From contig NZ_CP080382.1 in assembly GCF_019443425.1 (NCBI RefSeq), positions 1,302,001 through 1,366,000 on the forward strand: a stretch of 64,000 bases of DNA. The letters are read 5' to 3'. This stretch comes from Arthrobacter sp. PAMC25284. GTDB lineage: Bacteria > Actinomycetota > Actinomycetes > Actinomycetales > Micrococcaceae. Position numbers and translations under genes: made by a program. Under the pieces are notes generated by a model. The model was not told the origin of the DNA and searched no databases. It saw only the letters and a list, made by a program, of their open reading frames with translations. Of this stretch, positions 15,051 to 52,646 are shown in pieces (the stretch's first letter is position 1; each line of letters begins with the position of its first letter).

Positions 15051-16434
15051 TTATCGCTTGGCGGCTGCGAGCAGATCGGCGGTCCCGCGGGCGTCGGCTG
15101 CGTCGACGTCGTGCAGGGAAATCCCCTTGGTCTCCTTGAGGAAGTACACCGCAACCAGGGTCACGATGCACGCCCCGAGCAGGTACAGGGCTACCGGGAC
15201 GGAGGACTTGAACTGGCCCAGCAGGGATGCTGCGATGATCGGAGCCATCGAACCGGCAACGATCGAGGTCACCTGGTAGCCCAGGGAGACACCGGAGTAG
15301 CGCATACGGGTCGGGAACATCTCGGCCATGATCGAGGGCTGACCGGCGTACATGAGGGCGTGGAACATCAGGCCGATCGTAATCGCGGCAAGAATAATGA
15401 GGTCGTTCCCGGTGTCCATCATCGGGAAGGCGAAGAAGCCCCAGGTGCCGCCGAGAATCGCGCCGGCCGCGTAGACCGGTTTGCGTCCGAACGCGTCGGA
15501 GAGCCGGCCGACCAGCGGGACCGCGCAGAAGTGGATGAAGTGCGCCACGAGCAGGAGCAGCAGGATCCGTGAGGTGTCCGTCTGCACGATGACCTTGAGG
15601 TAGGTGATGGAGAACGTAACCACGAGGTAGTACAGGATGTTCTCCGCGAAGCGCAGGCCCCATGGCGGTGAAAACGCCCCGCGGGTAGCGGCGGAACACT
15701 TCGGCGACGCCGTACCCCTTCTTTTCCAGGGTCACTTCCTTCTGTGCTTCGAGGAAGATGGGGGCGTCGCTGACCTTGGTGCGGATGTAGTAGCCGACCA
15801 GAACGATGACGGCAGAGAGCCAGAAGGCAACCCGCCAGCCCCAGCCGAGGAATTCCGCGGGCGCCAGGGTGGAGGACAGGGTGAACAGGACGCCGGTGGC
15901 GAGCAGGTTGCCCAGCGGCACCGCGGACTGCGGCCAGCTGGACCAGAAGCCGCGGGACTTGCTCGGGCTGTGCTCGGCGACCAGAAGGACGGCGCCACCC
16001 CATTCGCCGCCGACAGCGAAGCCCTGGGCGAAGCGGAGGAAGACCAGCAGGGCCGGGGCCCAGTAGCCGATCTGGGCGAAGGTCGGCAGGCAGCCCATCA
16101 GGAAGGTGGAGACGCCGACGAGGATGATGCTCAACTGCAGCAGTTGTTTGCGGCCGAACTTATCGCCGAAGTGGCCGAAGACGATGCCGCCGATCGGGCG
16201 GGCCACGAAGCCGACGGCGTAGGTCAGGAACGCGGCGATGATGCCGTCCAGCTCCGTACCGGAATTGGGGAAGAAGACCTTGCCAAAGACCAGGGTGGCC
16301 GCGGAGGCGTACAGGAAGAATTCGTACCATTCAACGACGGTGCCGGCCATCGAGGCCGCTACTACCTTCTTTAGTCCGGAGGACTCCGGATCAGTCTGCG
16401 CGGGGCGCCTCGCGGCGGGATTACCAACACTCAT
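15051..16434 (-). pseudogene. MFS transporter, metabolite:H+ symporter type, frameshifted
   Basis: A twelve-helix transporter of the MHS family (citrate, proline/betaine or shikimate type). The first part has [31 protein letters not shown] and [17 protein letters not shown]; the second resumes as [18 protein letters not shown] with the [10 protein letters not shown] loop. The frame breaks at GGCCCC 15656-15661: on the coding strand ATGGGGCC should read ATGGGCC to join GVFTAMG to [11 protein letters not shown]. Removing one base gives 460 residues, a full-length family member. The start ATG 16434 has AGAGGAG 6 bases upstream. It lies downstream of metX, but an operator like that of the neighbouring LysR gene lies upstream, suggesting uptake of an mms-pathway substrate. 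The frameshift is probably a sequence error. Confidence 0.8.
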
Positions 16435-16572
16435 GGGAACTCCTCTGGCGTCTTCTTCGACACCGTTTGAACCAATGGACTCGGATGCGTGTGACATGGC
16501 GCACACGGCATCATTACCCATGAGTATGTCCGGCTCCAGCCCTGGTCTCAACGGCCATTAGCGCAGGGCGCA

Positions 16573-16588
16573 TCTGCAAATATGCACA
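16573..16588. promoter_or_regulatory. candidate second operator for the mms LysR regulator
   Basis: TCTGCAA, 2-base spacer AT, ATGCACA: the right arm is identical to the mms operator arm and the geometry (7-2-7) is the same; the left arm matches 5 of 7. It lies 139 bases upstream of the transporter start. Confidence 0.45.
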
Positions 16589-16600
16589 GACCAGCCGGGG

Positions 16601-17806
16601 CTAGCCGAAGAAGTGGCTGCGTAACTGCCCGCTGAGCTGGCCGATTTCGGTCAGGAATCCGTCGTGTCCGATGGGCGAGTCGATCATGTGCAGGACGGCG
16701 CCACCGGGCAGCGCCTCGGCCAGTTCCAGGGACTGGGCAGGGAAGTACAGCCGGTCGGACTCCACGGCTGCGATCAGGAACTTCGCTGTGGCCGCCGCCA
16801 GGGATGCGCTAAGGGCCCCGCGCCCCCGGCATACGTCGTGGCTCATCAGCGCTTCGGTGATGGCGATGTAGCTGTTGGCGTCGAAGCGCCGGACCAGCTT
16901 GCTCCCTTGGTGGTCCAGGTAGCTCTCCACCTGGTAGCGCCCCCGCCCGGCCACCGATCCGGCTTCCAGCGGAGCTTCGGCCCCCTGGGGATTCCGGCCG
17001 AACCGTCCGTCCAGTTCGGCGGCGGAGCGGTACGTGATGTGCGCGATCCTGCGCGCCAGGGCGAGGCCGGCTTCCGGCTGCGGACCGCCGTAGTAGTTCC
17101 CGCCGCGGAAATTGGGATCCTGCCGGATCGCCAGGGTCTGGGCCTGCGCAAAGGCGATCTGCTCGGCGGTGCTGCTCGCGCCGACTGAAATCACGGCGCA
17201 GTGCCGGACCCTTTCCGGGTAGGTAACGGCCCATTCGAGGGCACGTGCCCCGCCCAACGAACCGCCCAGGACAGCGTACCAACTCCCGATCCCCAGGGCG
17301 TCAGCGAGCCTGGCCTCGGCCGCGGTGGTGTCCCGCAGGGTGACCAGCGGGAACCGGGATCCCCAGGGCTGTCCGTCCGGCGCCGGCGTCGAGGGCCCCG
17401 TGGAGCCGTAGCAGCCGCCCAGGATGTTGATGGAGACCACGAAGTACCGGTCCGTATCCACGGGCGCACCGGGGCCGGCGAGTTCTTCCCACCAGCCGGG
17501 CTCCTCGCTGGCGCCGCGCGTGACGTGGGTGTCCCCGGTGAGGGCGTGTTCGATCAGCACGGCGTTGGAGCCGTCGGCGTTAAGGGTGCCCCATGTTTCG
17601 TAGCCGAGGACCACGTCCGGGAGCGTCACGCCGCATTCGAGGTCCAGGGCACCGATCCGGAGGTACTGGACGGTCCCGTCCGGCGCCCCGGCCGGGGGCG
17701 CAGGGTGAACGTCCGCGACCCGGGCCGGTGCGGACGCTGCGCATGTCCCGGCGTTGCGGGACGGTGTGGTTTCGGGGACACCACTGCGGGTGATGGAAAT
17801 CGTCAT
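16601..17806 (-). CDS. metX: homoserine O-acetyltransferase
   Basis: Moves an acetyl group from acetyl-CoA to homoserine, the first committed step of methionine synthesis. It has 401 residues. The alpha/beta-hydrolase-like core shows VLIEHALTGDTH, NILGGCYGSTGPST, the nucleophile elbow GGSLGG, YYGG in the substrate tunnel region, Asp in VESDRLY and His in SPIGHDGFL. ATG 17806 is preceded by GAGG at a good distance. A SAM-IV riboswitch fills the leader and ends about 15 bases from the start codon, so ligand-dependent blocking of translation is plausible. Its product is used by MetY, encoded just upstream on the same strand. Confidence 0.95.
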   Translation of the reverse strand: MTISITRSGVPETTPSRNAGTCAASAPARVADVHPAPPAGAPDGTVQYLRIGALDLECGVTLPDVVLGYETWGTLNADGSNAVLIEHALTGDTHVTRGASEEPGWWEELAGPGAPVDTDRYFVVSINILGGCYGSTGPSTPAPDGQPWGSRFPLVTLRDTTAAEARLADALGIGSWYAVLGGSLGGARALEWAVTYPERVRHCAVISVGASSTAEQIAFAQAQTLAIRQDPNFRGGNYYGGPQPEAGLALARRIAHITYRSAAELDGRFGRNPQGAEAPLEAGSVAGRGRYQVESYLDHQGSKLVRRFDANSYIAITEALMSHDVCRGRGALSASLAAATAKFLIAAVESDRLYFPAQSLELAEALPGGAVLHMIDSPIGHDGFLTEIGQLSGQLRSHFFG

Positions 17807-17821
17807 GTGCGGACCTCACTT

Positions 17822-17933
17822 AGCGCTTGCCCGCCGTCGACTGAACGGCAGGCCAGGTCCTCACCCGGGGCACCCCGCCGCTAAAGGAGGGTTGCCGGCC
17901 AGCAAGCCGGGGCTGTCACTGGCACTCATGACC
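17822..17933 (-). ncRNA. SAM-IV riboswitch in the metX leader
   Basis: On the minus strand the leader begins GGTCATGAGTGCCAG, continues with a CCCCGGCTTGCTGGCCGGCAACC block and a GGCGGGGTGCCCCGGGTGA block, then GGACCTGGCC, and ends with a hairpin and GGGCAAGCGC. This order matches the actinobacterial SAM-IV class as I remember it. It shares nearly all these blocks with the metY leader. A -10-like TACACT lies exactly 7 bases upstream of the first G. Confidence 0.88.
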
Positions 17934-17940
17934 TTTTATG

Positions 17941-17946
17941 AGTGTA
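17941..17946 (-). promoter_or_regulatory. -10 box TACACT of metX
   Basis: TACACT lies 7 bases before the riboswitch. The same hexamer at the same distance precedes the metY riboswitch, which supports transcription starting at the first base of the aptamer in both cases. Confidence 0.6.
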
Positions 17947-18011
17947 CGAAACAGGGCGGGGAAATGGCGAAGAATGTGACTTCCATATGACAGCCGGACC
18001 TGGCCGCAGGA

Positions 18012-18097
18012 ATTTCCCCATCTTTGAGGGCCGGTTCGGGCGGGCCGCCCCGAAACATCGGCGGGTGCCGGCGTCGTTGGCGCAAAGATGGGGAAAT
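18012..18097. repeat. long interrupted inverted repeat between metY and metX
   Basis: ATTTCCCCATCTTTG (18012-18026) and CAAAGATGGGGAAAT (18083-18097) are perfect 15-base complements separated by 56 bases, and the loop carries its own GC-rich partial palindrome around GGGCGGGCCGCCCC. It begins about 20 bases after the metY stop, so it may end the metY transcript; it has no U tract. Confidence 0.8.
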
Positions 18098-18116
18098 CCG
18101 GCGCAGGCCGGTAGCC

Positions 18117-19433
18117 CTACGCGGTCTTCGCTGCCCGGAATCCGGCGTCGAGATCAGAAAGGATGTCATCAATGTGTTCCAGTCCCACGGAGAGGCGCAC
18201 GAGTCCCGGGCTGACGCCGGCGATCTCCTGCTGTTCCGCGGTGAGCTGGCTGTGGGTGGTCGACGCCGGATGGATGACCAGCGAGCGCACGTCGCCGATG
18301 TTGGCAACATGGGAGTGCAGTTCGAGGGCATCGACGAAACTCTTGCCGGCCTCCGCTCCCCCGGCGATGGTGAAGCTGACCACGGCACCGGTTCCCTTCG
18401 GCCCGTACGTGCGGCCCCGCTCGTACCAGGGGCTGGACGGCAGTCCGGCGTAGGCGACGGAGTCCACGTCGTCCCTGGCTTCGAGCCATTCGGCAACACG
18501 GGTGGCGTTGGCTACGTGGCGTTCCATCCGCAGGCTCAGCGTCTCGATGCCCTGGGCAATAAGGAACGCATTAAACGGCGAGACCGCCGAGCCGAGGTCC
18601 CGGAGGAGCTGGACCCTGGCCTTGAGGATATAGGAAAGGTTGGCCCCGAGGGCGCCATCCTTGCCCAGGTCCCGGGCGTACACGATGCCGTTGTAGGTGG
18701 GGTCCGGGGTGTTGAAGCCGGGATACCGTTCCGGGTCCTTGCCGAAGTCGAAGTTGCCGGAATCCACGATCACGCCGGCGATCGCGGTGCCGTGGCCGCC
18801 GAGGTACTTCGTGGCGGAGTGGACCACAATGTCCGCTCCCCATTCGATTGGCCGGATGAGGAAGGGTGTTGACAGGGTGTTGTCGACGATCAGCGGCACC
18901 CCGGCCTCGTGGGCAACCTTCGAGATGCCCTCGAGGTCCAGCACGTCCTGGCGGGGGTTGGAGACCACCTCACCGAAGAACAGTTTGGTGTTCGGCCGGA
19001 CAGCCTGGCGCCACTGCTCGAGGTTGTCCGGATCGGCCACAAACGTAACGCTGATGCCGAACTTTTTCAGGGTGTGGGCGAACAGGTTGTACGTTCCGCC
19101 GTAAAGGCTGGGACTTGCCACGATGTGGTCTCCGGCTTCGGCCACGTTCAGGATGGCGAAGGTCTCGGCCGCCTGGCCAGAGCTCAACAGCAGGGCTCCG
19201 AGGCCGCCTTCGAGGCTGGCCACGCGCTGCTCCACCGCGTCCTGGGTGGGGTTGCCGATCCGGGTATAGATGGGCGCCAGTTCCGCGAGGGCGAAGCGGT
19301 TGGCGGCGCTTTCCGCGCTCGGGAAGACAAACGAAGTTGTCTGGTAAATCGGCAAGGCCCGCGCACCGGCGGTGGCGTCCGGCTCCTGGCCGGCATGGAT
19401 CTGGCGGGTTTCGAAGGACCAGGAATTGGTCAT
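18117..19433 (-). CDS. metY: O-acetylhomoserine aminocarboxypropyltransferase (sulfhydrylase)
   Basis: PLP enzyme that joins O-acetylhomoserine (from MetX) with sulfide to make homocysteine. It has 438 residues. Marks of the Cys/Met metabolism PLP family are FETRQIHAGQEPD at the start, YTRIGNPTQDAVEQRVASLEGG, and the PLP lysine in VHSATKYLGGHGTAIAG, with RLSVGLEHIDDILSDL at the end. The ATG at 19433 has AGGAG 7 bases upstream. The leader contains a SAM-IV riboswitch. The gene lies upstream of metX on the same strand, but each has its own riboswitch and promoter. Confidence 0.95.
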   Translation of the reverse strand: MTNSWSFETRQIHAGQEPDATAGARALPIYQTTSFVFPSAESAANRFALAELAPIYTRIGNPTQDAVEQRVASLEGGLGALLLSSGQAAETFAILNVAEAGDHIVASPSLYGGTYNLFAHTLKKFGISVTFVADPDNLEQWRQAVRPNTKLFFGEVVSNPRQDVLDLEGISKVAHEAGVPLIVDNTLSTPFLIRPIEWGADIVVHSATKYLGGHGTAIAGVIVDSGNFDFGKDPERYPGFNTPDPTYNGIVYARDLGKDGALGANLSYILKARVQLLRDLGSAVSPFNAFLIAQGIETLSLRMERHVANATRVAEWLEARDDVDSVAYAGLPSSPWYERGRTYGPKGTGAVVSFTIAGGAEAGKSFVDALELHSHVANIGDVRSLVIHPASTTHSQLTAEQQEIAGVSPGLVRLSVGLEHIDDILSDLDAGFRAAKTA

Positions 19434-19496
19434 TGTTGGCTCCTGACGGAATCGGGCACGGCCGTTCCGGGCCTCGATCCGGAACGGCACGGGCGC

Positions 19497-19607
19497 CGCG
19501 CTTGCCCTCCGGCGGTCGCCGGACAGCCAGGTCCTCACCCGGGGCACCCCACCGCGAGTGAGGGTTGCCGGCCAGCGAGCCGGGGCTGGATGCTGGCACT
19601 CATGACC
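19497..19607 (-). ncRNA. SAM-IV riboswitch in the metY leader
   Basis: The minus strand starts GGTCATGAGTGCCAG, then CCCCGGCTCGCTGGCCGGCAACC, GGTGGGGTGCCCCGGGTGA, GGACCTGGC, a GTCCGGCGAC/GCCGGA hairpin and GGGCAAGCGC. Block order and spacing match the metX copy. About 63 bases separate it from the metY start, so transcriptional or translational control are both possible. TACACT lies 7 bases upstream (19615-19620). Confidence 0.88.
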
Positions 19608-19614
19608 TGGCTTC

Positions 19615-19620
19615 AGTGTA
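19615..19620 (-). promoter_or_regulatory. -10 box TACACT of metY
   Basis: Same hexamer and same 7-base distance to the aptamer as in metX. A TTGGCG hexamer about 15 bases further upstream could be the -35. Confidence 0.6.
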
Positions 19621-19706
19621 AGTACAGTGCTGCGGCGCCAATAGCTTTGTGACGAACATGTCGCTGAGCTGGGCCTGGGCCGCTACTGAATGACATCCCA
19701 CCACGG

Positions 19707-19720
19707 TTAGGTACGCCTAA
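19707..19720. promoter_or_regulatory. candidate iron-box-like inverted repeat TTAGG-TACG-CCTAA
   Basis: Perfect 5-base arms with 4-base spacer, resembling the centre of a DtxR/IdeR iron box. It lies 43 bases upstream of the VOC gene start. The outer parts of the 19-base consensus are not conserved. Confidence 0.35.
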
Positions 19721-19762
19721 GCTGAGAGGCCCATCACAAAGTGCCAAGATGAAGGCATGCGC

Positions 19763-20395
19763 ATGGATCACGTTTCTTACGCCTGTGAACACGATGGCTT
19801 GGCAGCCACCACCGAACGTATTGCGTCTGCCCTCGGCGTTGAAGCCGTGAAGGGCGGAGTACACCCCCGCTTCGGGACCCGCAACATGATCATCCCGCTC
19901 GCGGGCCACAAGTACCTGGAAGTCGTTGAGGTACTGAACCACCCGGCGTCGGACAAGGCACCGTTTGGCCAGGCAGTGCGGGCACGCTCCGAAGCGGGCG
20001 GCGGCTGGATGGGCTGGTGTGTCGAGGTCGATGACCTCGCGCCCTTCGAGCAACGGCTGGGCCGTGCCGCGGTGAAGGGCAACCGCAAGTTCCCCGACGG
20101 CCGCGAGCTCGTCTGGAAGCAGATCGGCATCCTCGGCCTCATCGCCGACCCGCAGGTCCCGTACATGCTCAAATGGGACGGCGATCCGGATCTGCACCCG
20201 TCCAACGCCTATGCGAGCGAAGTCAAGATGTCCAGCCTCACCATTGCCGGCTCTGCGGAGCGCGTCACCGAATGGCTCGGCGAACCAGTGGAAAAACCCC
20301 TGGAAGACGTCGCCGTGGAATGGCTCGCCCCGCACGGTACCCCCGGAATCCTGTCCGTCACATTCGAGACGGCCTCGGGCGCCGTTACGATCTAA
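19763..20395 (+). CDS. VOC-family (glyoxalase-like) protein
   Basis: A 210-residue vicinal-oxygen-chelate protein of the Glyoxalase_3 style. It opens with MDHVSYACEHDGLAATTERIASALG, then GTRNMIIPLAGHKYLEVVEVL, and a degenerate second module from about residue 150. His3 and Glu in YLEVVEV are likely metal ligands. The reaction is unknown. ATG 19763 is preferred over ATG 19757 because GAAGG lies 7 bases before it but only 1 base before the first. It is divergent from metY. Confidence 0.82.
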   Translation: MDHVSYACEHDGLAATTERIASALGVEAVKGGVHPRFGTRNMIIPLAGHKYLEVVEVLNHPASDKAPFGQAVRARSEAGGGWMGWCVEVDDLAPFEQRLGRAAVKGNRKFPDGRELVWKQIGILGLIADPQVPYMLKWDGDPDLHPSNAYASEVKMSSLTIAGSAERVTEWLGEPVEKPLEDVAVEWLAPHGTPGILSVTFETASGAVTI

Positions 20396-20416
20396 GGCCC
20401 GGGCCCCCCATATTTC

Positions 20417-20463
20417 GGCTGCCATTCAGGGGTGCCAGAGTTGTCACCCCTGAACGGCGGCCG
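20417..20463. terminator. bidirectional terminator
   Basis: TTCAGGGGTG (20425-20434) pairs with CACCCCTGAA (20445-20454), extended by imperfect GGCTGCC/GGCGGCC pairs. It lies between the convergent VOC and CPBP genes; TTTG-TTT follows. Confidence 0.8.
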
Positions 20464-20485
20464 GACTTTGTTTAACCGGCTGTTT

Positions 20486-21255
20486 TCAGCCCAGCCCCAC
20501 GGCCTTGCCGAACAGGCTGAACCCCACAAATGCCACGGTATCCAACACCGCATGGGCGATCACGAGAGGCATCACCCGCTTGGTGCGGGTATAGATCAGC
20601 GCGAACACCACCCCCATCACGGCGTTGCCGATGAACGGCCCGAATCCCTGGTAAAGGTGGTAGCTGCCGCGCAGCACGGCACTGGCAGCAATGGCCACGG
20701 GTACGCTCCAACCGAATTTCCCCAGCCGGTCCAGCAGGTACCCCACCACGATCACTTCCTCCACGATGCCGTGGCGGACCGCGGACAGGATCAGGACCGG
20801 CACCGTCCACCAGTAGGCATCGAGCGCGCTGGGGATGATCGCCGTCGTAATGCCAAGCGCCCTGCCCGCGGCATAGAGGGCCCCAGGGACGGAATCCCGA
20901 TCACGGCAGCCAGACCCAGCCCCTGGCCGAGGTCTTTCCCCGGCCGGGCGAAGTTGAAGCCCAGTTTCCGGAAGGCCGAGGTGCCGCGGTCTCCGGCCGC
21001 ACGGTGTTCCGAGAGGAAATAGATCACCAGGACCACCGGGACGAGGGCAAAGACGATGTCCAGTAACTGGTATGTGAGATCGAAGTATTCGCGGCTGCTC
21101 TTCGAACGGTTCAGTGTGGAGGTCCCCTGGGCCAGTGGTGCCCTGGTCATCTTGTCGAGCAGCTGGACCACGGAATACACGGCAGACTGGCCCAGGGACA
21201 GCCCCAGGACGATCAGGACTTCGAGCCGCAGCCGGCGGCGGGAGGGAACCAACAT
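20486..21255 (-). pseudogene. CPBP-family intramembrane metalloprotease, frameshifted
   Basis: About 255 residues, with several membrane helices. The CPBP motifs are present after the break: HGIVEEVIVVGYLLDRL (first motif, the EE pair), RGSYHLYQGFGPFIGNAVMGVVFALIY (second) and PLVIAHAVLDTVAF (third). These prenyl-endopeptidase-like proteins cleave membrane substrates. The frame breaks at GGGCCCC 20878-20884. Reading coding-strand GGGGCCC as GGGCC (two bases fewer) gives IGIPSLGLYAAGRALG, matching the usual family run; one added base is the alternative. ATG 21255 has AGGAG only 1 base away, so TTG 21252 is a possible start. Probably intact in the living cell. Confidence 0.75.
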
Positions 21256-21313
21256 GCTCCTATCTTGCCCGGTGTTGCTGGCAGTCGCCTGCGGTTGCCT
21301 ATGCTTGGGGTTT

Positions 21314-23229: not shown

Positions 23230-23240
23230 GCGTCCATTCT

Positions 23241-24353: not shown

Positions 24354-24430
24354 GACTCCATCCTTGCAGACCTCGGGAGCCGCGGCACGACTTCCGGGAC
24401 ATCAGTTGCCGGCCGGCGCATAGTGGTCGG

Positions 24431-25697: not shown

Positions 25698-26745
25698 CTA
25701 GAAGCCGGTCCAGTCCAGGACCACTTTGCCGCCGGAACCGGCGCCGGCGATCTCGAAGCCCTTCTCCCAGTCCGCGGCGGGCAGGGTGTCGGTGACGACG
25801 GCGGAGATGTTGGCGCGAAGTACCGGGTTGGAAGACAGCATGGCGCTCATGGCGTACCAGGTCTCAAACATTTCGCGGCCATAGATGCCCTTCAGGGTCA
25901 GCATGTGAGTGACGACCTTGCCCCAGTCGATGTCGATGGACTGGCTGGGCAGTCCCAGCATTGCGATCCGGCCGCCGTGGTTCATGTTGTCGATCATCTC
26001 AGGCAGCGCCGTAGGGTGTCCCGACATTTCCATGCCGATGTCGAACCCTTCCCGCATGCCCAGCTCCCGCTGGGCCTCCCTGACCCGCATCTTCGAGACG
26101 TCGATCGCGAGATCGACGCCGAGCGTGCGGGCCAGTTCCAGCCGCGGCGCGGAGACGTCCGTGATGGCAATCTTGCGGGCGCCGGCGTGGCGGGCGACGG
26201 CGATGGCCATCAACCCGATCGGTCCGGCACCGGTGATCAGGACGTCCTCGCCGACGAGCGGGAAGCTGAGGGCGGTGTGGACGGCGTTACCGAAGGGGTC
26301 GAAGATGGCCCCCAGTTCCGGTGTGACGGACGGGTCGTGGTGGACCCAGACGTTGGTTTCCGGGATCACAACGTATTCGGCGAAGGCGCCGTCGCGCTGG
26401 ACACCGACACTGACGGTGTGAATGCACATCTGCCGGCGTCCGGCGCGGCAGTTGCGGCAGATCCCGCAGACGACGTGGCCTTCGCCGGAGACCCGGTCAC
26501 CGACTTTTACGTCCCGGACGTCCGCGCCGATCTCCACGACCTCGCCGTAGAACTCGTGGCCGGCGATCAGCGGGGCATTAATGATGCCCTGCGCCCACGC
26601 GTCCCAGGACTGGATGTGCAGGTCGGTGCCGCAGATGCCGGTGGTCATGACCCGGATTTTGACGTCCGAGGGTCCGGTTTCAGGCTCCGGGCGATCGGTC
26701 AGTTCGAATCCCGCGTGCGGGCCCTGCCTTGTAGAGAGCCTTCAT
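25698..26745 (-). pseudogene. tdh: L-threonine 3-dehydrogenase, frameshifted near the start
   Basis: Zn- and NAD-dependent alcohol-dehydrogenase-family enzyme making 2-amino-3-oxobutyrate from threonine. The intact part starts [17 protein letters not shown] (catalytic Zn Cys) and has [13 protein letters not shown], the structural-Zn cysteines in [15 protein letters not shown], and [18 protein letters not shown] for NAD. The true start is ATG 26745, reading MKALYKAGP, but the frame is lost at GGGCCC 26719-26724. Removing one base restores [23 protein letters not shown] and gives 348 residues, exactly the family size. It is upstream of kbl and divergent from a LysR gene. A sequence error is the likely cause. 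Confidence 0.88.
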
Positions 26746-27850: not shown

Positions 27851-29358
27851 TTAACCCTCGACGCCGAGTCGCTCCAGGATGAGTTCGCGGACGCGCCCGG
27901 CATCGGCCTGCCCGCGGGTGGCCTTCATAACCCCGCCCACGATCGCGCCGACGGCCTGGACCTTGCCGCCGCGGATCTTGTCCGCGACGCCGGGCTGCGC
28001 GGCGAGGGCCGCGTCGATGGCTTCCAGCAGGGGGCCCCGTCGTCGGAGACCACGGCGAGGCCGCGCTTCTGGACGATCTCCTCCGGGGTTCCTTCGCCGG
28101 CGAGGACGCCGTCGAGGACTTCGACGGCCATCTTGTTGTTGATCTTGCCGGCCTCGACCATGGCGTTCAGTTCCACGATGGTGGCCGGCCTGACACCGAG
28201 CTGGCCCGGATCGACGTCGGCGTTCTTGGCCCGTCCGACAATCTCGCCCATCCACCACTTGCGGGCCACCGTGGCGGTGGCACCGGCGGCGATGGTCTCC
28301 TCGATCTCATCCATCACACCGGCGTTGACAACGTCCCGGAATTCGAGATCGGAGTAGCCCCAGTCGGCCTGCAGGCGCTTGCGGCGGGCAGCCGGCGGCT
28401 CGGGCAGCGTGGCCCGGAGCTCCTCGACCCACTCGCGGGACGCAACGATGGGGACGAGGTCCGGTTCCGGGAAGTAGCGGTAGTCGTCGGCATCGGACTT
28501 GGGCCGGCCCGACGTCGTGGTGCGGGTGTCCTCATGCCAGTGCCGGGTTTCCTGGACGATGGGCTCGCCGGCATCCAGGACGGCGGCGTGCCGCTGGATC
28601 TCGTAGCGGACGGCATGTTCGACGGCGCGCAGCGAGTTGACGTTCTTGGTCTCCGAGCGGATGCCGAAGCGTTCGCGGCCGTACGGGCGCAAGGAGACGT
28701 TGGCGTCGCAGCGGACGTTCCCGCGCTCCATCTTCGCGTCCGAGACCCCGAGGTTCTTGACGATCTCGCGGACCGCGGCCACGTAGGCCTTGGCGAGTTC
28801 CGGCGCGCGGGACCCGGCGCCCTGGATCGGCTTGGTGACGATCTCCACGAGCGGGACACCCGAGCGGTTGTAGTCCACGAGGGAATAGTCCGCACCCTGG
28901 ATCCGGCCTGCGGCGCCGCCCATGTGGGTGAGCTTGCCGGCATCCTCTTCCATGTGGGCGCGTTCGATCTCGACTCGGAACACGGTCCCGTCGGCAAGTT
29001 CGACGTCCAGGTAGCCATCGAACGCAATCGGCTCGTCGTACTGGGAGGTCTGGAAGTTCTTCGGGGTGTCCGGGTAGAAATAGTTCTTCCGGGCGAAGCG
29101 GCAGGTCTCGGCAATGGTGCAGTTCAACGCCAGGCCGATTTTGATCGAGGACTCGATCGCCTTCCTGTTCACCACCGGGAGCACGCCGGGCAGGCCCAGG
29201 TCCACCTCGTTGACGTTGGTGTTCGGCTCGTCACCAAAGACGTTCGGCGCGGAGGAGAACATTTTTGTCTTCGTGTTGAGCTCGACGTGAACCTCGAAAC
29301 CCAGGACGGGATCGTACTTCTCCATCGCCTCTTCGAAGCTGAGGGTTGCGTCAGTCAT
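27851..29358 (-). pseudogene. gatB: Asp-tRNA(Asn)/Glu-tRNA(Gln) amidotransferase subunit B, frameshifted
   Basis: Kinase/tRNA-binding subunit of GatCAB, which turns Glu-tRNA(Gln) into Gln-tRNA(Gln). About 501 residues once corrected. Marks are DPVLGFEVHVELNTKTKMFS, the DLGLPGVLPVVN block, DYNRSGVPLVEIVTKP and GRPKSDADDYRYFPEPDL, with the YqeY-like tail at the end ([21 protein letters not shown]). The frame breaks at GGGGGCCCC 28030-28038, near SDDG. Reading two bases fewer gives [14 protein letters not shown], collinear with homologues; one extra base is the alternative. ATG 29358 overlaps the gatA stop by one base. The gene is essential where no GlnRS exists, so the break is very probably a sequence error. 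Confidence 0.92.
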
Positions 29359-30939
29359 TAGTGGGAACCTCCGTGGCTCGAAACAGCCTCAGTCGAAACA
29401 GCGTCAGTTGGTGCGGATTCCGTCAGCGACGGCGCCTTGTCCAGCAGCGGGCCGCCCCACTGCGCCTCGAGCAGGGATTCCAGCACCGCACCGACCCGGT
29501 AGAGGCGGGCATCCTGGCGGGCCGGGGCCAGCAACTGGATGCCGACGGGAAGCCCGTCCTCGTCGGCCAGGCCGCCGGGCAGCGAGAGTCCGGGGACGCC
29601 GGCCATGTTGGCGGGGATGGTGGCGACGTCGTTGAGGTACATCGCGAGCGGGTCGTTGAGTTTCTCACCGAGCTTGAAGGCCGTGGTGGGGGCGGTCGGG
29701 GAGATCAGCACGTCGGCCTGTGCGAAGGCGGCCTCGAAGTCGCGCTGGATCAGGGTGCGCACCTTCTGGGCCGAGCCGTAGTAGGCGTCGTAGTACCCGG
29801 CGCTCAAGGCGTAGGTGCCCAGGATGATGCGCCGTTTGACCTCGTCGCCGAAGCCGGCGGCGCGGGTGGCGCCCATGACGCGTTCGATCGTGAGCGGGGC
29901 GTCCTTGGGAAGCACGCGCAGACCGAACCGGACGCCGTCGAACTTGGCGAGGTTGGACGAGGCCTCGGAGGGCATGATCAGGTAATAGGCGCCCAGGGCG
30001 TACTTGAAGTTGGGGCAGGAGACCTCAACGATCTCGGCGCCGGCGGCCTTGAGCAGTTCGAGCGACTCATTGAAGCGGTTCTCGACGCCGCGCTGGTAGC
30101 CCTCGCCGTGGAGTTCCTTGATGATGCCGATCTTCATGCCCTCGACGTTGCCGGTCCTGGCGGCGGCCACGAGGTCTTCCAGCGGATCCGGCAGCGAGGT
30201 GGAGTCGCGCGGATCGTGGCCGCCGATGACCTGGTGCAGCAGGGCCGAGTCGAGCACCGTGCGGGAGACCGGGCCGATCTGATCCAGCGAGGAGGCCATC
30301 GCGATGGCACCGTAGCGGGAAACCCCGCCGTACGTGGGCTTGACGCCGACCGTGCCGGTGACGGCGCCCGGCTGCCGGATCGAGCCGCCGGTGTCCGTGC
30401 CGAGCGCCAGCGGCGCTTCAAACGCCGCGACGGCGGCAGCGGACCCGCCGCCGGAGCCGCCCGGGATGCGCTCCAGGTCCCACGGGTTGTGGGTGGGGCC
30501 GTACGCGGAGTGCTCGGTCGAGGAGCCCATGGCGAATTCGTCAAGGTTGGTTTTGCCCAGGATGGGCATCTTCGCGGCGCGGAGCCGCTCGACCACGGTG
30601 GCGTCGTAGGGGCTGTGCCACCCCTCGAGGATCTTCGACCCTGCCGTGGTGGGCTGGCCGACGGTGACGATGAGGTCCTTGACGGCGATCGGTACGCCGG
30701 CGAGTTCGTGCAGTTCCGCGGCGGCGGCGCCTCCGGCGGCGCGGATGGCGTCCACCTCGGCGGCGACCGCGAGGGGCCTCGTCCGTGTTGACGTGGAGGA
30801 AGGCGTGGACCTTGCCGTCGACGGCGGCGATGCGGTCCAGGTAGGCCTGGGTGACCTCGACCGAGGTCACCTCCCCGGCGGCCAGTTTCCCGGCGAGCGC
30901 GGCGGCGGAGAGGCGGATCAATTCATTGCTGTCTGTCAT
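29358..30939 (-). pseudogene. gatA: amidotransferase subunit A, frameshifted near the start
   Basis: Amidase-signature subunit that releases ammonia from glutamine for GatCAB. The Ser-cisSer-Lys triad is visible: Lys in GVPIAVKDL, Ser in [15 protein letters not shown] and the nucleophile in [12 protein letters not shown]. The N-terminus starts at ATG 30939 ([19 protein letters not shown]) and runs to FLHVNTDEA, where the frame is lost at GGGGCC 30773-30778. Removing one base joins it to [16 protein letters not shown] and gives 526 residues, as expected. The stop TAA shares its A with the gatB ATG. It lies 4 bases after gatC. Almost certainly functional in vivo. Confidence 0.92.
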
Positions 30940-41013: not shown

Positions 41014-41045
41014 CATGGTGTTTCCGGCGAGACTCACCCGGAAAG

Positions 41046-44820: not shown

Positions 44821-44833
44821 GTGCCTGACCGCT

Positions 44834-44920: not shown

Positions 44921-45079
44921 GCACGAGACAATCGCCACACCGGGGGCTGGAATAACTTCACAAACGGGTAGTCTTCCGGCGGATTTGCCGGGATTAGCCG
45001 GCCGGTACGAACAAGATGCCCCGTAACATTACTCAACATCCGTTCGTCATGCTAGGAACTCCGGCTCTAGCGTGTTCCG

Positions 45080-46555: not shown

Positions 46556-46579
46556 CCCTCCGCAGTCCAGTCCCGTGCT

Positions 46580-46622
46580 AACGACGGATTCCCCCGGTAC
46601 ACCCGGGGGAATCCGTCGTTGA
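46580..46622. terminator. strong bidirectional terminator
   Basis: AACGACGGATTCCCCCGG (46580-46597) pairs perfectly with CCGGGGGAATCCGTCGTT (46603-46620) around a 5-base loop TACAC. It lies between the symporter and the convergent secreted-protein gene. Confidence 0.92.
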
Positions 46623-46662
46623 CACGGCCGCATTGGGCGCCGCTGCTGCGGGTGCGGACTGC

Positions 46663-47223: not shown

Positions 47224-47391
47224 GTTTTTCTCCTCTTTCGTCCGCGTGGATGCGACTGCTGGTGGTGATGTCTCGTTCCAAGACGTAACTCCAGTCTGCG
47301 GAGGCGGGTTCTGCGTGAGCTGTTCGGAACCTTTCATTGTGCTGTGAATGCTGTCCGGCCCCGGGCCGCGCTGAACCGGTAGGCTTCGGGC

Positions 47392-47781
47392 ATGCTGATC
47401 GTCACTTCGGACAACATCCCCGGCCACCGGATAGACGCCGTCTTCGGCGAAGTCATGGGCCTGACCGTCCGCGCCCGGCACATCGCCGCCCAGGTGATGG
47501 CAGGGTTCCGGTCCATCGGCGGCGGGGAACTGCCGGAGATGACCCGGGCCTTGTACGAAAGCCGGCAGCAGGTCATGGCCCGGATGGTCACCGAGGCGGA
47601 ACAGCGCGGTGCTAACGCCATTGTTGCCATGCGGTTCGACACCTCGGAGCTCGGACCGAACTGGACCGAGGTCTGTGCCTACGGGACGGCCGTTTTCGCC
47701 ATCCCGCTCGCCGCCGGTGAACCGGGCGCCACCGGCCAGTCCATCCGGCTCAGGGAGTCCGGCCAGGACCAGCCCCACTAA
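47392..47781 (+). CDS. UPF0145 (YbjQ-type) protein
   Basis: A 129-residue member of the UPF0145/YbjQ family, named as a heavy-metal-binding domain in some databases. The marks are VTSDNIPGHRIDAVFGEVMGLTVRARH, EMTRALYESRQQVMARMVTEAEQRGANAIVAMRFDTSE, and ending CAYGTAVFAIPL. These proteins form pentamers; function unknown. It is followed by a TetR gene with a clear symmetrical promoter region. Confidence 0.9.
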   Translation: MLIVTSDNIPGHRIDAVFGEVMGLTVRARHIAAQVMAGFRSIGGGELPEMTRALYESRQQVMARMVTEAEQRGANAIVAMRFDTSELGPNWTEVCAYGTAVFAIPLAAGEPGATGQSIRLRESGQDQPH

Positions 47782-47785
47782 GCTT

Positions 47786-47812
47786 GCGCATAGTGCAAAG
47801 ATGCACATAGTG
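47786..47812. promoter_or_regulatory. candidate TetR operator with repeated GCRCATAGTG
   Basis: GCGCATAGTG (47786-47795) and GCACATAGTG (47803-47812) are direct repeats 17 bases apart, and GTGCA (47793-47797) / TGCAC (47802-47806) form an inverted repeat in the middle. The site ends 7 bases before the TetR start, ideal for autorepression of TetR and the MMPL gene. Confidence 0.55.
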
Positions 47813-47819
47813 TAACTTC

Positions 47820-48530
47820 ATGCCGTTATCGATCTCCGACCCTGCGGAGCCTGTGCTCTCGCGCCGCGAACTCAATAAGGCAGCGACCCGCCAGGCCATC
47901 ACCGACGCGGCGCTCAGCCTGCTGCGCAGCAGCGGCCCCGGCAATTTCACTGTCGAGGACATCGCCGACGCCGCCGGGATCTCCCGGCGGACGTTCTTCA
48001 ACTACTTCAGCAGCACAGAGGCAGCCATAGCCTCGATAACGTTCGGCTTCCTGGACACGGCCCTCCGGCAGTTCCGGCGCCGGCCCGCCGGCGAACCCAT
48101 CATGGAATCGGCCCGGGCAGCGCTGGTGGAACTCGCCGACCCGATGACCGTCGCGCCCATGGCCGAGCTCCACAGCCTGGGCCAGGCCAATCCACAGCTC
48201 AGCCGCTCCGAACTGGAAGCCTGGGACCACTGCACCGAGCAGATTATCGAAGCCGCCCGCGAGCGCGTGCCGGGCGGCTCAGGCGCCGACGAACTGTATC
48301 TCCGTGCGCTGGCCGGGTCCGTGATTTCCTGCGGCAAAGCCGCCATGGACGTCTGGTTCGCCAGGTGCGGCGGCGACCTTAGCCCCGCGTCCCTCACCAC
48401 CCTCCGGCAGCTCCTCATCGATGCCATGACCCTGCTGGGCTCCGGCTTCGCCGGCCCGCAGCCCCGCACAACCGGCCCAACATCCGTACCTTCTGCCGCC
48501 GCTTCCACCCCGTCCCCAGATCGGAACTGA
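47820..48530 (+). CDS. TetR/AcrR-family regulator
   Basis: A 236-residue repressor. The N-terminal helix-turn-helix is KAATRQAITDAALSLL then GPGNFTVEDIADAAGISRRTFFNYFSSTEAAI. The ligand-binding domain is typical in length. The stop and the start of the MMPL gene are one base apart, so it almost surely represses that exporter and itself. The ATG lies just after the repeated upstream site. Confidence 0.9.
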   Translation: MPLSISDPAEPVLSRRELNKAATRQAITDAALSLLRSSGPGNFTVEDIADAAGISRRTFFNYFSSTEAAIASITFGFLDTALRQFRRRPAGEPIMESARAALVELADPMTVAPMAELHSLGQANPQLSRSELEAWDHCTEQIIEAARERVPGGSGADELYLRALAGSVISCGKAAMDVWFARCGGDLSPASLTTLRQLLIDAMTLLGSGFAGPQPRTTGPTSVPSAAASTPSPDRN

Positions 48531-48531
48531 C

Positions 48532-51072
48532 ATGGCACTTTTGCTCTACCGGCTCGGCAAGTACTCCTACCGGCACCGCTGGCTCGTCATCTCCCTCTGG
48601 CTTGCCGTGATGGTGGCTGTCGGCGGAGCCGCTGCGGCCTTCCACGGCACCATGTCCAATAACTTCCAGATCCCTGGCACCGAAACCCAGCAGGTCGCGG
48701 ACAAGCTCAAAAAGGAGCTCCCCGCCGCCTCCGGCGGATCGGCCGGGATCGTCTTCGAAGCCGGCGACGGGCCGTTCAGCCAGGCGGCGAAGGACGCGGT
48801 TTCCGCGGCCCTGACCAGGCTGGAGACCCTCCCCGATGTCCAGTCCACGGTGGATCCCTTCGCGACGCAGGCCCAACTGGAACAGGCCGCCGCAGAGCTC
48901 GCCGCCGGCGAACAGCAGGCCGCCGGCGGCAGGAAACAGCTGGAGCAGTCCGCCGCCGAACTCGCCGCCGGCAAAGCCCAGATCGCGGCCGCGGAACAGC
49001 AAATGGCCGCCGCCGGTATGCCGCCCGCCGCCATCGAGGCCCAATTGGGCCAGCAAAAGGCCGCGCTGGCCGCCGGACAGGAACAGCTCGACGCCGGCAC
49101 CAAGGACCTCGACGCCGGCGCGGCGCAGCTCGCCCTCGTCCAGCGCCAGCTCGACGCGTCCCAAGGCCTGCGGCTCGTCTCCGAAGATGGCACCGCCGCG
49201 ATAGCCCAGGTCCAGTTCAAGACCTCCATCAACGGCCTCGCCCCCGAGGTCCGCCAACAGGTCCAGGACATCGCCGGGGAAGTTTCCGCGGCCGGCGTGA
49301 CCGCCTATGCCAGCAAGGAAATCACCGAGGATATCTCCGAGCTGTTCGGCATCTCCGAAATCCTCGGCATCGCCATCGCCGCCCTGGTCCTGATCGTAAT
49401 GCTCGGCACCCTGATCGCGGCCGGCCTGCCCCTGCTGATGGCCCTCGTCGGCGTGGCGGTGGGCGTCGGCGGCACCTTCGCGCTCAGCGGCGCCGTGGAC
49501 ATGAGTTCCATCTCCCCGATGCTCGCCCTGATGCTGGGCCTCGCCGTCGGGATCGACTATTCACTCTTCATCGTCAACCGCCACCGCGGCCAGGTCCTGG
49601 CGGGCATGGACCCGGAGGAATCCGTCGCCCTCGCTACGGGAACCTCCGGCAACGCCGTCCTCTTCGCCGGCTTGACCGTCATCATTGCCCTCGCCGCACT
49701 GGTCATCCCCGGACTGCCCTTCCTGGCCGTGATGGGCCTCTCCGCCGCCGCTACGGTGGCGGTCGCCGTCGTCGTCGCCCTGACTTTGACCCCCGCGGTC
49801 CTGTCAGTCATCGGATCAAAACTCATCTCGAAGCGGGCGTGGGCGAAGGCTGCGAAGCACAATGCCCAGCCCGGCCACGAGAGCGAAGACCGGGCCAGGG
49901 ACGAACGCCGCAGCAGCCACGGCTGGGGCGGACTCGTCACCCGGCACCCGGTCGTGGCGCTGCTGGCGGGCGTGGCACTGCTGGGCATCATCGCCCTGCC
50001 GGCCGGCCAGTTGCGGCTCGCACTGCCCGACGGCGGCTCCGAGCCGGTCGATTCGCAGGCCTACAAGTCCTACGAAGTCACCGCCCGCAGCTTCGGTGAA
50101 GGCACCACGGGCCCGATCGTCGTCGTCGGGGACCTCCCCGCCGGGCTGACCGAGGCTGAGGCCCAGGCCAAGCAGTTGGACGTCGCCGATGCCCTGCGCA
50201 GCGTGGACAACGTCAGCGCAGCCGTCCCGGTCGCCCTCAGCACGGACCGCCGCACAGCGGTCTTCCAGGTCATCCCGGCGGAAGGCCCGGCCAGCGCCAG
50301 CACCGTCCAGGTGGTCTCCGATTTGCGTGGCAACAAGACCGAGATCGCGGATGCCACGGGGGTCAGCATCGGACTCACCGGCCAGACCGCCGGGAACGTG
50401 GACGTCTCGGCCAAGCTCGGCGACGCCCTTCCCCCGTACCTGGCGATCGTCGTCGGGCTCTCGCTGATCCTGTTGCTGCTGGTCTTCCGCTCGATCGTTG
50501 TACCGCTGCTGGCCACCGGCGGATTCCTGCTCTCCCTTGCCGCCGCCTTCGGCGCCGTCGTCGCTGTGTACCAGTGGGGCTGGCTCGGCGCCGTCTTCGA
50601 TGTCCCGAATCCGGGTGCTGTGCTCAGCTTCCTGCCCATCATCCTGATCGGGGTGCTGTTCGGCCTGGCCATGGACTACCAGGTCTTCATCGCCTCCGGC
50701 ATGCGGGAGTCCTACATGCACGGCGAGTCGGCCAAGCACGCGGTCCGCTCCGGCTTCAGCCACGCCGCGGCCGTGGTCGCCGCGGCCGCGATCATTATGG
50801 TCAGCGTGTTCGCCGGCTTCATCTTCTCGCACCTGACCATGGTCCGGCCGCTCGGGTTCGCGATGGCCTTCGGGGTGCTGGTGGATGCCTTTGTGGTCCG
50901 GATGACGATCGTCCCGGCCGTGATGTACTTGCTCGGCGAGAAGGCCTGGTGGCTGCCGCGCTGGCTTGACCGCATCCTGCCGGATGTGGACGTCGAGGGT
51001 GCGAAGCTCCGCACGACGGGCGCCGGCAGCGATGCGGCTAACGTGGAGCCGGTCGAGGCTGCGGCCCGGTAG
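48532..51072 (+). CDS. MMPL-family RND transporter
   Basis: An 846-residue exporter with twelve membrane segments. Helix 1 is YRHRWLVISLWLAVMVAVGGAAAAF; the first extracytoplasmic domain holds a long coiled-coil (about residues 103-205) of Ala/Gln/Leu repeats such as QLEQAAAELAAGEQQ. The MMPL marks are LMLGLAVGIDYSLFIVNRHR (GxxxDY in the middle of the membrane) and its C-terminal repeat FGLAMDYQVFIASGMRESY. It uses proton flow to export lipids, siderophores or drugs. Coupled to the TetR gene; substrate unknown. Confidence 0.92.
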   Translation: MALLLYRLGKYSYRHRWLVISLWLAVMVAVGGAAAAFHGTMSNNFQIPGTETQQVADKLKKELPAASGGSAGIVFEAGDGPFSQAAKDAVSAALTRLETLPDVQSTVDPFATQAQLEQAAAELAAGEQQAAGGRKQLEQSAAELAAGKAQIAAAEQQMAAAGMPPAAIEAQLGQQKAALAAGQEQLDAGTKDLDAGAAQLALVQRQLDASQGLRLVSEDGTAAIAQVQFKTSINGLAPEVRQQVQDIAGEVSAAGVTAYASKEITEDISELFGISEILGIAIAALVLIVMLGTLIAAGLPLLMALVGVAVGVGGTFALSGAVDMSSISPMLALMLGLAVGIDYSLFIVNRHRGQVLAGMDPEESVALATGTSGNAVLFAGLTVIIALAALVIPGLPFLAVMGLSAAATVAVAVVVALTLTPAVLSVIGSKLISKRAWAKAAKHNAQPGHESEDRARDERRSSHGWGGLVTRHPVVALLAGVALLGIIALPAGQLRLALPDGGSEPVDSQAYKSYEVTARSFGEGTTGPIVVVGDLPAGLTEAEAQAKQLDVADALRSVDNVSAAVPVALSTDRRTAVFQVIPAEGPASASTVQVVSDLRGNKTEIADATGVSIGLTGQTAGNVDVSAKLGDALPPYLAIVVGLSLILLLLVFRSIVVPLLATGGFLLSLAAAFGAVVAVYQWGWLGAVFDVPNPGAVLSFLPIILIGVLFGLAMDYQVFIASGMRESYMHGESAKHAVRSGFSHAAAVVAAAAIIMVSVFAGFIFSHLTMVRPLGFAMAFGVLVDAFVVRMTIVPAVMYLLGEKAWWLPRWLDRILPDVDVEGAKLRTTGAGSDAANVEPVEAAAR

Positions 51073-51086
51073 CAGCATTTCGTCCG

Positions 51087-51128
51087 CCAAAGCCGCCCCT
51101 GATCCTTGCGAAGGGCGGGCGGCTTTGG
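51087..51128 (+). terminator. terminator after the MMPL gene
   Basis: CCAAAGCCGCCC (51087-51098) pairs with GGGCGGCTTTGG (51117-51128). No U tract follows. It also faces the convergent GNAT gene. Confidence 0.7.
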
Positions 51129-51377
51129 TGAGCAGCACCGGGTCGGCGGTGGGCATTGGCGGGGCCACGCACACGGAGGGGCAGGAAGTGTCTTTCGGTT
51201 TGAAGTGAGAGGTGCCGGCGGACGCGGAGAGGACTTTGGCGTCGAGGCCCGCACAGGGTCCCAGTGGCAGACCCGTCGAAGGCCCGGGTTCTCCGCCGCA
51301 GCACAGCCCGCTGGTCGGACCGGCAGCTTATCCTCTTTGCGGTAGCGCACTTGCCCCAACGCGAAAAACCGGTAGTT
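51129..51377. other. intergenic region without recognised feature
   Basis: No credible gene, repeat or RNA found. Short minus-strand frames here lack coding character. Confidence 0.4.
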
Positions 51378-52082
51378 TCAAGGAGCCGACAGACTGACGA
51401 AGTACTCTTGCTGGACCGGCACACGGCCCAGCTTCTGGGCCGTGTGCAGCGAGGGCAAGTTCCCAGCGTGGATGTGGCCCCAAACGATGTCCGCCCCCGA
51501 GCGTTGACGGGCCAGGAACGTGGACTGGATCGCCGGAGCCAGGCCCTTGCCACGCAGACGTTCCGCCAGGAACATGTCCAGCATGCAGACCGCACGTCGG
51601 CCAAAGAGCGGTGCGATAGTCGCGGCGGCCAATCCCGCAAAGCCTTGATTGTCGCGCAGCGACATCAGCAGGCCCTGGTCCGCGGCTTCCTGGAGCCCCT
51701 TTTGGTCGGACTCCGAAACAAACGAGGCCAGCTCTGGGGTGTCGGACCGCCACGACTGATGTTCGTGCTGGTACCCGGCAAACACTTCAGTCGCTGCTTC
51801 CGGCCATGACGTCGTCAGAGTCCCGGTCAGCTCCCGCTCGTCAGCTCTCGCCGCTACGTCCATGCGTCCGGCCACGAGGGTTGCCCAGCGTTCGGCGGAG
51901 ACGATGTCGAGGCCGGGTTGCTCCCAGAATGTGAAGCCACGCACCCCAACGCCGCAGTAGGCGTCCGTCACTCGGGCGGCCAGCGCATCAACTGCCTCGG
52001 CGTTGAACCCGGCAGGAAGGTACTCCAGTGGCGGGGCAGCGAATGCGGCGAGTTGGTGGTCCGGCAGCCCAAAAGGATTCAT
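51378..52082 (-). CDS. GNAT-like acetyltransferase
   Basis: A 234-residue protein. The C-terminal half has GNAT character: FAGLAAATIAPLFGRRAVCMLDMFLAERLRGKGLAPAIQ has the RLRGKGLA acetyl-CoA loop, and VWGHIHAGNLPSLHTAQKLGR is the usual ending with Asn-x-x-Ser and a helix. The N-terminal half is not recognised. ATG 52082 (MNPFGLPDHQL) is chosen; the frame is open upstream to 52292, but that stretch has poor codon bias, overlaps the next gene and contains a likely promoter. Substrate unknown. Confidence 0.65.
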   Translation of the reverse strand: MNPFGLPDHQLAAFAAPPLEYLPAGFNAEAVDALAARVTDAYCGVGVRGFTFWEQPGLDIVSAERWATLVAGRMDVAARADERELTGTLTTSWPEAATEVFAGYQHEHQSWRSDTPELASFVSESDQKGLQEAADQGLLMSLRDNQGFAGLAAATIAPLFGRRAVCMLDMFLAERLRGKGLAPAIQSTFLARQRSGADIVWGHIHAGNLPSLHTAQKLGRVPVQQEYFVSLSAP

Positions 52083-52276
52083 GGAAACCAAAGCTATCGT
52101 GTGGGCCCGCGGCCTGAGTCGTACGGAACTATCCGCCACCCGTTGGTTAGCTCGGCCCGCTCGTTCACCGGCGGGGAAGGCGACCCCGCTGTCTGCCTGG
52201 ACCAGAGTTCTGTCCGTCATGACGAGCTCGATTTCGATCCCGCTGATCCCGCCGGGCCGCCCGGTAGTTCGTTCGG

Positions 52277-52646
52277 TCAGTGCATCGGCCATAAGCTGCC
52301 CGCGGCTCCTCGCATCGCCGGCGGGGCGGGCGGCGTCCGCGTGGCGGCGCGTCCGGTGACGGACCGCGGATCCCGCCGATAGGCGGCCGCCCTCGTCGCG
52401 GCGATGATGGCCCGGTCACCGGCGTTGCGCAAGGCGCCTGTGTCGGCTGCGAGCTCCTCGTCCACAGCGGCCCCGGTCCGCAGTTGCGAGGCGCGTCGTT
52501 TCCCGCATCAAGAGCGCGGCGCGCCATTCGTTGAGCTGGCCGGTATCCAGCGCCGGCCGGGGCCGGGAGGCGGCCACGATCCGGAGCAGGTCCGCGAGCG
52601 ACATGCCTGCCAATTGAACCACTTCGGACTTCTGATTGCCGTCCAT
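52277..52646 (-). pseudogene. hypothetical protein, frameshifted
   Basis: A small helical protein of about 122 residues after correction. ATG 52646 has AGGAGG 7 bases upstream, a strong ribosome site, and reads MDGNQKSEVVQLAGMSLADLLRIVAASRP. The frame then fails at GGCCCC 52469-52474. Removing one base joins RLATADR to AAVDEELAADTGALRNAGDRAI and runs to a stop at 52277. No family recognised. The break has the same G/C-run context as five others in the window. Confidence 0.55.

Follow-up and report, generated by a model that had tools for sequence, protein, structure and literature searches.

Surplus bases in GGCC-centred runs of the Arthrobacter sp. PAMC25284 genome, a probable footprint of DNA phosphorothioation

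The window, by which we mean the whole stretch of 64,000 nucleotides (nt) analysed here from Arthrobacter sp. PAMC25284 (contig NZ_CP080382.1, positions 1,302,001 to 1,366,000), contains six genes that change reading frame within short G/C runs centred on GGCC. A preliminary description of this DNA had listed these six frame changes, and when we re-located the runs in the genome its coordinates proved right and relatives were shorter by one or two bases at each. Five of the runs are on the minus strand. The run in a gene for an MHS-type transporter (GGCCCC, 15656..15661) has one surplus base, with both the collinear Arthrobacter relative G010 and a second relative, G030, shorter by one (2/2); the G010 counterpart of this gene matches the metabolite/H+ symporter family TIGR00883, at a score under the cut-off of that family. 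A CPBP-type gene has two surplus bases (GGGCCCC, 20878..20884; 11/11 relatives shorter by two), and tdh has one near its 5' end (GGGCCC, 26719..26724; 13/13 relatives shorter by one), which was detected by DNA alignment and missed by the protein-based caller described below. The amidotransferase genes are both affected: gatB by two bases near its 3' end (GGGGGCCCC, 28030..28038; 18/18 relatives shorter by two) and gatA by one base near its 5' end (GGGGCC, 30773..30778; 16/17 relatives shorter by one, the exception being the untidily aligned stretch L022), their counterparts in G010 being GatB and GatA, respectively. The sixth run, in a small hypothetical gene (GGCCCC, 52469..52474, no strand assigned), has a net surplus of one base relative to 3/3 relatives and is the weakest of the six sites, as the relatives there are only 71-73% identical. 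Since the relatives are one or two bases shorter at all six runs, the surplus bases belong to this assembly, and the six frame breaks are almost certainly sequence errors, that is, consensus errors of a long-read assembly rather than mutations.

Frame breaks were also sought beyond the window, a check that had been proposed with the preliminary description, using 800 kb of the PAMC25284 genome (one contig of 3,883,676 bases, 99.99% completeness), 800 kb of G010, and 400 kb of G030. In the protein-based caller, the proteins of a relative are searched against the genome and points of frame change are scored. Of the 557 G010 proteins used as reference, 387 were matched, covering 438,936 nt, and 49 frame-break events were identified in PAMC25284. 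Single insertions of 1-2 bases inside a GGCC run accounted for 22 of the 49 events and a further six lay no more than 6 nt from such a run, the remainder being 18 complex events, one long event, one deletion, and one insertion elsewhere. GGCC-associated insertions thus make up 28 of the 49 breaks, and 28/30 of the simple ones. A separate census at the nucleotide level, which covered 401,564 aligned coding bases and kept only isolated, well-aligned gaps (58/1,043, with 985 discarded), yielded 42 insertions and 16 deletions. Of the insertions, 29 were in GGCC runs, and of the deletions, one (4 nt) touched GGCC. The union of the callers at a tolerance of 7 nt comprised 37 GGCC runs with surplus bases and nine other simple insertions away from GGCC, along with 27 rows, from both references, that were complex or otherwise unclassed. 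The surplus bases were spread over the 800 kb examined.

The insertions were specific to the order of bases in the run. Isolated insertions of 1-2 nt were found in 25/511 GGCC runs of at least 6 bases and in 2/1,020 CCGG runs of at least 6 bases (Fisher p = 1.4e-10), in agreement with the earlier view that the errors are systematic rather than random, and in 1/2,344 G/C homopolymers of at least 4 bases away from GGCC and 1/726 A/T homopolymers of at least 4 bases. With a tolerance of 3 nt the hit counts were 28 for GGCC, four for CCGG, and two each for G/C and A/T homopolymers. Because such insertions hardly occur in CCGG runs or plain homopolymers, base composition and homopolymer length are insufficient on their own to explain the insertions, and the GGCC order matters. 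An ordinary homopolymer error, the rate of which is set by run length whatever the neighbouring base, does not describe these data (1/2,344 vs 25/511). The run-length spectra of the whole stretches hardly differed among PAMC25284, G010, and G030, as the affected share of runs is too small to show there.

Specificity for GGCC, together with the minority of sites that is affected, is compatible with any modification of GGCC, including cytosine methylation by a HaeIII-like enzyme that is misread by nanopore sequencing, the cause suggested in the preliminary description. However, the C5-cytosine methyltransferase family PF00145 had no match in this one-contig genome, and the same search was positive in 10/14 control genomes. 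Cytosine-type enzymes of the N4-cytosine methyltransferase group have the motif SPPY/SPPF. Both PF01555 enzymes of PAMC25284 have a DPPF motif and its 929-residue PF02384 enzyme has an NPPF motif, both of which we take to be adenine-type, and GGCC contains no adenine; SPPY/SPPF was absent from both PF01555 proteins, the families searched being PF00145, PF01555, and PF02384. What the genome has instead is a gene cluster for a different modification, predicted to be made at GGCC. Hence, the hint of a GGCC-specific DNA modification stands, the GGCC cytosine methyltransferase proposed with it is not supported, and we consider GGCC cytosine methylation decidedly unlikely as the cause of the insertions.

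That cluster is a complete dndABCDE set, for the phosphorothioation of DNA, about 305 kb beyond the end of the window; its coordinates are local to stretch L100 (positions 1,662,001-1,682,000 of the genome). The dndA gene (L100:7114-8289, minus strand; PADLOC DndA 403 bits, SspA 424) is divergent from dndBCDE, a layout that presumably matches that of Streptomyces lividans. The dndB gene (L100:8327-9461, plus strand) is in two frames, with PADLOC pieces of 235 and 277 bits and PF14072 in both, which join at a GGGCCC run; a gene of the cluster itself is therefore broken in the same way, and intact dndB genes were found in other genomes. It is followed by dndC (L100:9458-10882), with 695.6 bits to TIGR03183 against a cut-off of 290.4, dndD (L100:10957-12981; PADLOC DndD 640 bits, a PbeC model 677), and dndE (L100:12971-13324; PADLOC 51 bits, with a match to the solved DndE structure 7x4e at E = 1.5e-5). 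Adjoining dnd at about 1,659,869-1,664,728 of the contig (G000:C1; L099:17869-19998 and L100:1-2728) are PbeA-like (PADLOC E = 3.3e-253) and PbeC-like genes, the latter split at a GGGCCCC run, and this gene content points to a defence island of the Dnd-Pbe type, built around phosphorothioation. Downstream of dndE are a gene with a GmrSD_N domain (L100:13418-15370) and a ResIII/DUF3427 type IV-like restriction gene (L100:15270-18581).

The target of Dnd systems of this type has been related to a loop in DndC, with Arg-X-Lys/Arg assigned to GpsGCC and R132-P133-K134 present in S. lividans DndC, and a change of R-P-K to T-R-S abolished GGCC modification in an assay (PMC12193691, 2025). The PAMC25284 DndC has the loop GYPAPRPKFRW, starting at residue 127, which gives R132-P133-K134 and agrees with the Arg-X-Lys/Arg rule. 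Its Dnd system is consequently predicted to be of the GpsGCC type, with GGCC as the putative target. DndC is rare: counting PAMC25284, carriers numbered 2/206 among genomes of the genus, 2/396 in a sample of genomes from the order, and 3/396, counting matches above the cut-off, in a sample from the phylum.

A search of plasmid records for DndC identified a second such strain, Arthrobacter sp. StoSoilB13, whose DndC is 67% identical to that of PAMC25284 and has the same loop. It was chosen as a replicate on DndC alone, and 400 kb of record NZ_AP024648.1 were examined. This 1.35 Mb record is listed as a plasmid; it carries the gatA/gatB region and stretches that match the chromosome of relatives, and so is probably chromosomal. 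Relative to G010, there were 39 events in 236,238 nt of StoSoilB13: 26 insertions in GGCC runs, three near them, nine complex events, and one elsewhere, so that GGCC-associated insertions represent 29/39 of all events and 29/30 of the simple ones. With G030 as reference there were 37 events, comprising 25 insertions in GGCC runs, one near, one deletion in a run, eight complex events, one long event, and one elsewhere. The NtRoot, StoSoil, and NicSoil Arthrobacter strains (tobacco root, Kameoka soil) were sequenced by Illumina HiSeq 2500 and PacBio Sequel II (PMC8262997), and StoSoilB13 appears to be part of that project, based on the naming series of the strain and on Kameoka as its recorded place of origin. 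As the platform of PAMC25284 is unstated and a genome with the same signature appears to derive from PacBio and Illumina reads, the nanopore origin suggested earlier lacks support.

Affected runs mostly start at codon position 3 (19/28 in PAMC25284 and 19/29 in StoSoilB13), as might be expected if programmed frameshifting, or a tRNA that reads four bases, made the insertions harmless. Such a device would keep to a single codon phase and always shift by the same number of bases. The phase found, however, is that of the background of 5-base G/C runs, of which 0.63 and 0.66 start at codon position 3 in PAMC25284 and StoSoilB13, respectively (6-base runs, 0.30 and 0.35), which indicates that 5-base runs gained a base regardless of reading frame, and insertions of both +1 (25 events in each genome) and +2 (three and four events) occur. 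We regard programmed frameshifting as next to negligible as an explanation. With respect to flanking bases, an outer A was under-represented at affected runs in StoSoilB13 (0.04 vs 0.32, p = 7.5e-7) and weakly avoided in PAMC25284 (0.15 vs 0.26, p = 0.03), and a G at the third flank base was favoured in StoSoilB13 alone (p = 8e-5). These preferences, measured against a background that was not matched for codon phase, may reflect the sequence context of the enzyme.

It was also considered whether the G/C tracts gain bases in the cell, for instance at damaged phosphorothioate sites or through weak repair of indels, since the shorter runs of the relatives are equally expected from true insertions. 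The proteins of 20 of the 28 clean events were scanned for family identity, and the intact G010 counterparts of the broken genes include GatA, GatB, proline-tRNA ligase, NirB, threonine ammonia-lyase, and thymidine phosphorylase, a dehydrogenase E2-like protein that scored under the family cut-offs, and, by domain, TruB, an IPP transferase, a tetrahydrofolate dehydrogenase/cyclohydrolase (FolD-type), and an undecaprenyl diphosphate synthase (UppS-type). Several of these genes, such as those for GatA, GatB, proline-tRNA ligase, and the FolD- and UppS-type enzymes, are usually essential, and with so many genes hit, real loss is not credible. In addition, a Dnd-positive draft genome with the same DndC loop, G104 (130 contigs), had no signature events in the 49,632 nt compared with G030, in which three would be expected at the PAMC25284 rate and six at that of StoSoilB13. 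The 24,336 nt compared with G010 were likewise free of them, with one complex event and, on the dnd contig, one non-GGCC insertion. The platform of G104 is unstated, and it is likely a draft from short reads. Taken together, genuine mutation has in our estimation almost no chance of being the cause.

For controls without the system, we used fifteen genomes of the genus assembled into 1-4 contigs, taken to be DndC-negative from the DndC search of all 206 genus genomes; 20 stretches of 20 kb each gave a coverage of 303,705 nt. GGCC-associated insertions were absent from their 43 events (17 complex, three long, and 23 simple). When G010 was the target, there was one GGCC-near insertion in 21 events with PAMC25284 as reference and none in six with G030, and when G030 was the target, GGCC insertions numbered none in 10 and none in 11 events with the two references. 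Pooled, 57 such insertions occurred in 675,174 nt of PAMC25284 and StoSoilB13 vs one in 978,846 nt of DndC-negative DNA (Fisher p = 2e-21 per nt), a comparison in which the controls may differ in platform from PAMC25284, itself of unstated platform; platform-matched controls were sought and none was found. A reference-free caller, which scores GGCC runs of at least 6 bases near frame switches against chance expectation, gave a consistent result, with 38/81 switches near GGCC in PAMC25284 (chance 3.5) and 21/54 in StoSoilB13 (1.7), as opposed to 2/43 in G010 (1.9) and 0/25 in G030 (1.2). By this caller CCGG showed a milder excess (13/81 in PAMC25284, chance 6.1; 9/54 in StoSoilB13, chance 2.9); CCGG often adjoins GGCC.

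We propose that phosphorothioate (PT) at GGCC causes the surplus bases in the adjoining G/C runs, and assign this a probability of roughly 0.87. DndABCDE would place PT at GGCC in the native DNA, and the PT would disturb single-molecule sequencing, by slowing the polymerase (PacBio) or altering the pore signal (nanopore); where the mark lies inside GGGCC, GGCCC, or a longer run that is hard to count, the consensus would add one or two G/C and the gene would appear broken. We infer both the use of long single-molecule reads and a physical role of PT in adding the bases. Published work is consistent with the individual steps. PT is partial in S. lividans, where d(GpsG) was measured at 471 +/- 39 per million nt (PMC6186775), and a Shewanella that had received a dnd cluster had PT at about 4% of its motif sites, as seen via the shift in SMRT inter-pulse duration (PMC8569181), while nanopore base-call error rises around a PT site (PMC9069010). 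Surplus bases in a few per cent of runs are in keeping with such partial modification.

The uncertain platform of the controls is one of several points that weigh against this proposal. The sulfur in the PAMC25284 DNA backbone at GGCC is something we infer, the GGCC insertions being an indirect sign of it. As many as 18/49 events in PAMC25284 and 9/39 in StoSoilB13 were complex and left unclassed, and the errors require longer G/C runs than the PT context reported for S. lividans, CGGCC or GGCCG (PMC6186775). Nonomuraea gerenzanensis (L188) is Dnd-positive, with a DndC loop (GYPAPKPKFRW, K-P-K) close to the GGCC pattern and distinct from it, and 200 kb of its genome, of unstated platform, had no GGCC signature, with 0/15 frame switches near GGCC (chance 0.7). 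Massilia H6, whose DndC loop is R-P-K, had zero frame-break calls of any kind, hence there is no power in that comparison. Lastly, the DndC-negative genome G029 (L164) has 12 one-base deletions within a single stretch of 20 kb, most of them at G/C runs and 8/12 in or near GGCC runs, indicating that such runs are error-prone in themselves. This last point, as well as the chance that PAMC25284 and StoSoilB13 share a platform, would suit a plain weakness of the platform at junctions of G and C runs in GC-rich DNA, with Dnd a coincidence. Yet the errors in G029, an uncorrected assembly with a different error type, are deletions and not insertions, the DndC-negative genomes described above had almost no such insertions, CCGG junctions, which have the same composition, are spared, and DndC, which is present in about 1% of the genus, occurs in both of the genomes with the signature. 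A platform weakness alone is therefore improbable in our view, and PT at GGCC remains the explanation we favour.

The closest known system is that of S. lividans 1326 (GpsGCC), which has dndABCDE, the DndC residues R132-P133-K134, and the GGCC target predicted here. It differs in that PT is known in S. lividans, in CGGCC/GGCCG, whereas in PAMC25284 PT is predicted and the footprint is confined to longer G/C runs, and in that the PAMC25284 dnd genes are adjoined by PbeA- and PbeC-like genes. In Salmonella, PT in native DNA perturbs long-read calling at the motif, as proposed here, though that study concerned GAAC/GTTC and used raw reads and deletion controls (PMC9069010), while here the motif is GGCC and PT is deduced from errors fixed in a finished assembly. 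Ordinary long-read homopolymer errors also consist of indels of 1-2 bases in G/C runs that break genes; unlike them, the errors described here are insertions at GGCC only, and it is G029 that shows the ordinary deletion type.

A further parallel is found in Pseudomonas aeruginosa, in which 2/10 isolates, PA068 and PA188, had nanopore R10.4.1 errors at GGCC that were left unexplained, with 1,716/70,459 and 1,646/83,098 low-quality GGCC sites, respectively; no methylation that fits is described, and an unidentified kind of modification is considered possible there (PMC12345217). Words beginning with phosphorothioat do not occur in PMC12345217. In both cases a minor fraction of the GGCC sites is affected and no methylation found fits. 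The P. aeruginosa errors are mostly G-to-A substitutions (PMC12345217) and those of PAMC25284 are insertions. Prompted by that report, we counted G-to-A changes at the second G of GGCC and found 56/1,442 in PAMC25284, 28/1,379 in G010, 29/1,462 in G030, and 33/688 in StoSoilB13; a control, C-to-T at the second base of CCGG, had a similar rise (38/2,081 in PAMC25284, 21/2,119 in G010, and 20/2,053 in G030). Restricted to codon positions 1 and 2, GGCC substitutions were 12/1,952, 6/1,893, 5/2,043, and 1/946 in PAMC25284, G010, G030, and StoSoilB13, respectively.

We lean, with less assurance, toward PT at GGCC producing false frameshifts, generally and so far unnoticed, in long-read genomes with a GGCC-type Dnd system, such assemblies being readable, partial maps of PT, and toward the same cause for the P. 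aeruginosa errors. No paper linking PT to GGCC frameshifts was among those listed in searches of an open-licence literature library, a scope outside of which fall most subscription papers and all bioRxiv preprints. If true, a single known modification would account for about 250 false pseudogenes in PAMC25284 (28 per 439 kb scaled to 3.88 Mb), claims of gene loss and essentiality in Dnd-positive long-read genomes would need to be re-checked, and the assembly alone could predict the presence and motif of a phosphorothioation system. A finished genome sequence would then seem to carry the footprint of a chemical mark on the DNA, and the unexplained GGCC errors in P. aeruginosa outbreak sequencing would have a testable candidate cause.

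With regard to the last of these, a GGCC-type loop is encoded on a P. aeruginosa plasmid unconnected with PA068 and PA188: plasmid ppae01 (L147) carries dndBCDE, and its DndC has the loop GYPAPRNRFRW, in which R-N-R conforms to the GGCC pattern. Two other genomes, G848 (L141) and Rhizobium sp. NXC14 (L195), have the DndC loop GYPAPSRRFRW, whose S-R-R falls outside all three published loop classes.

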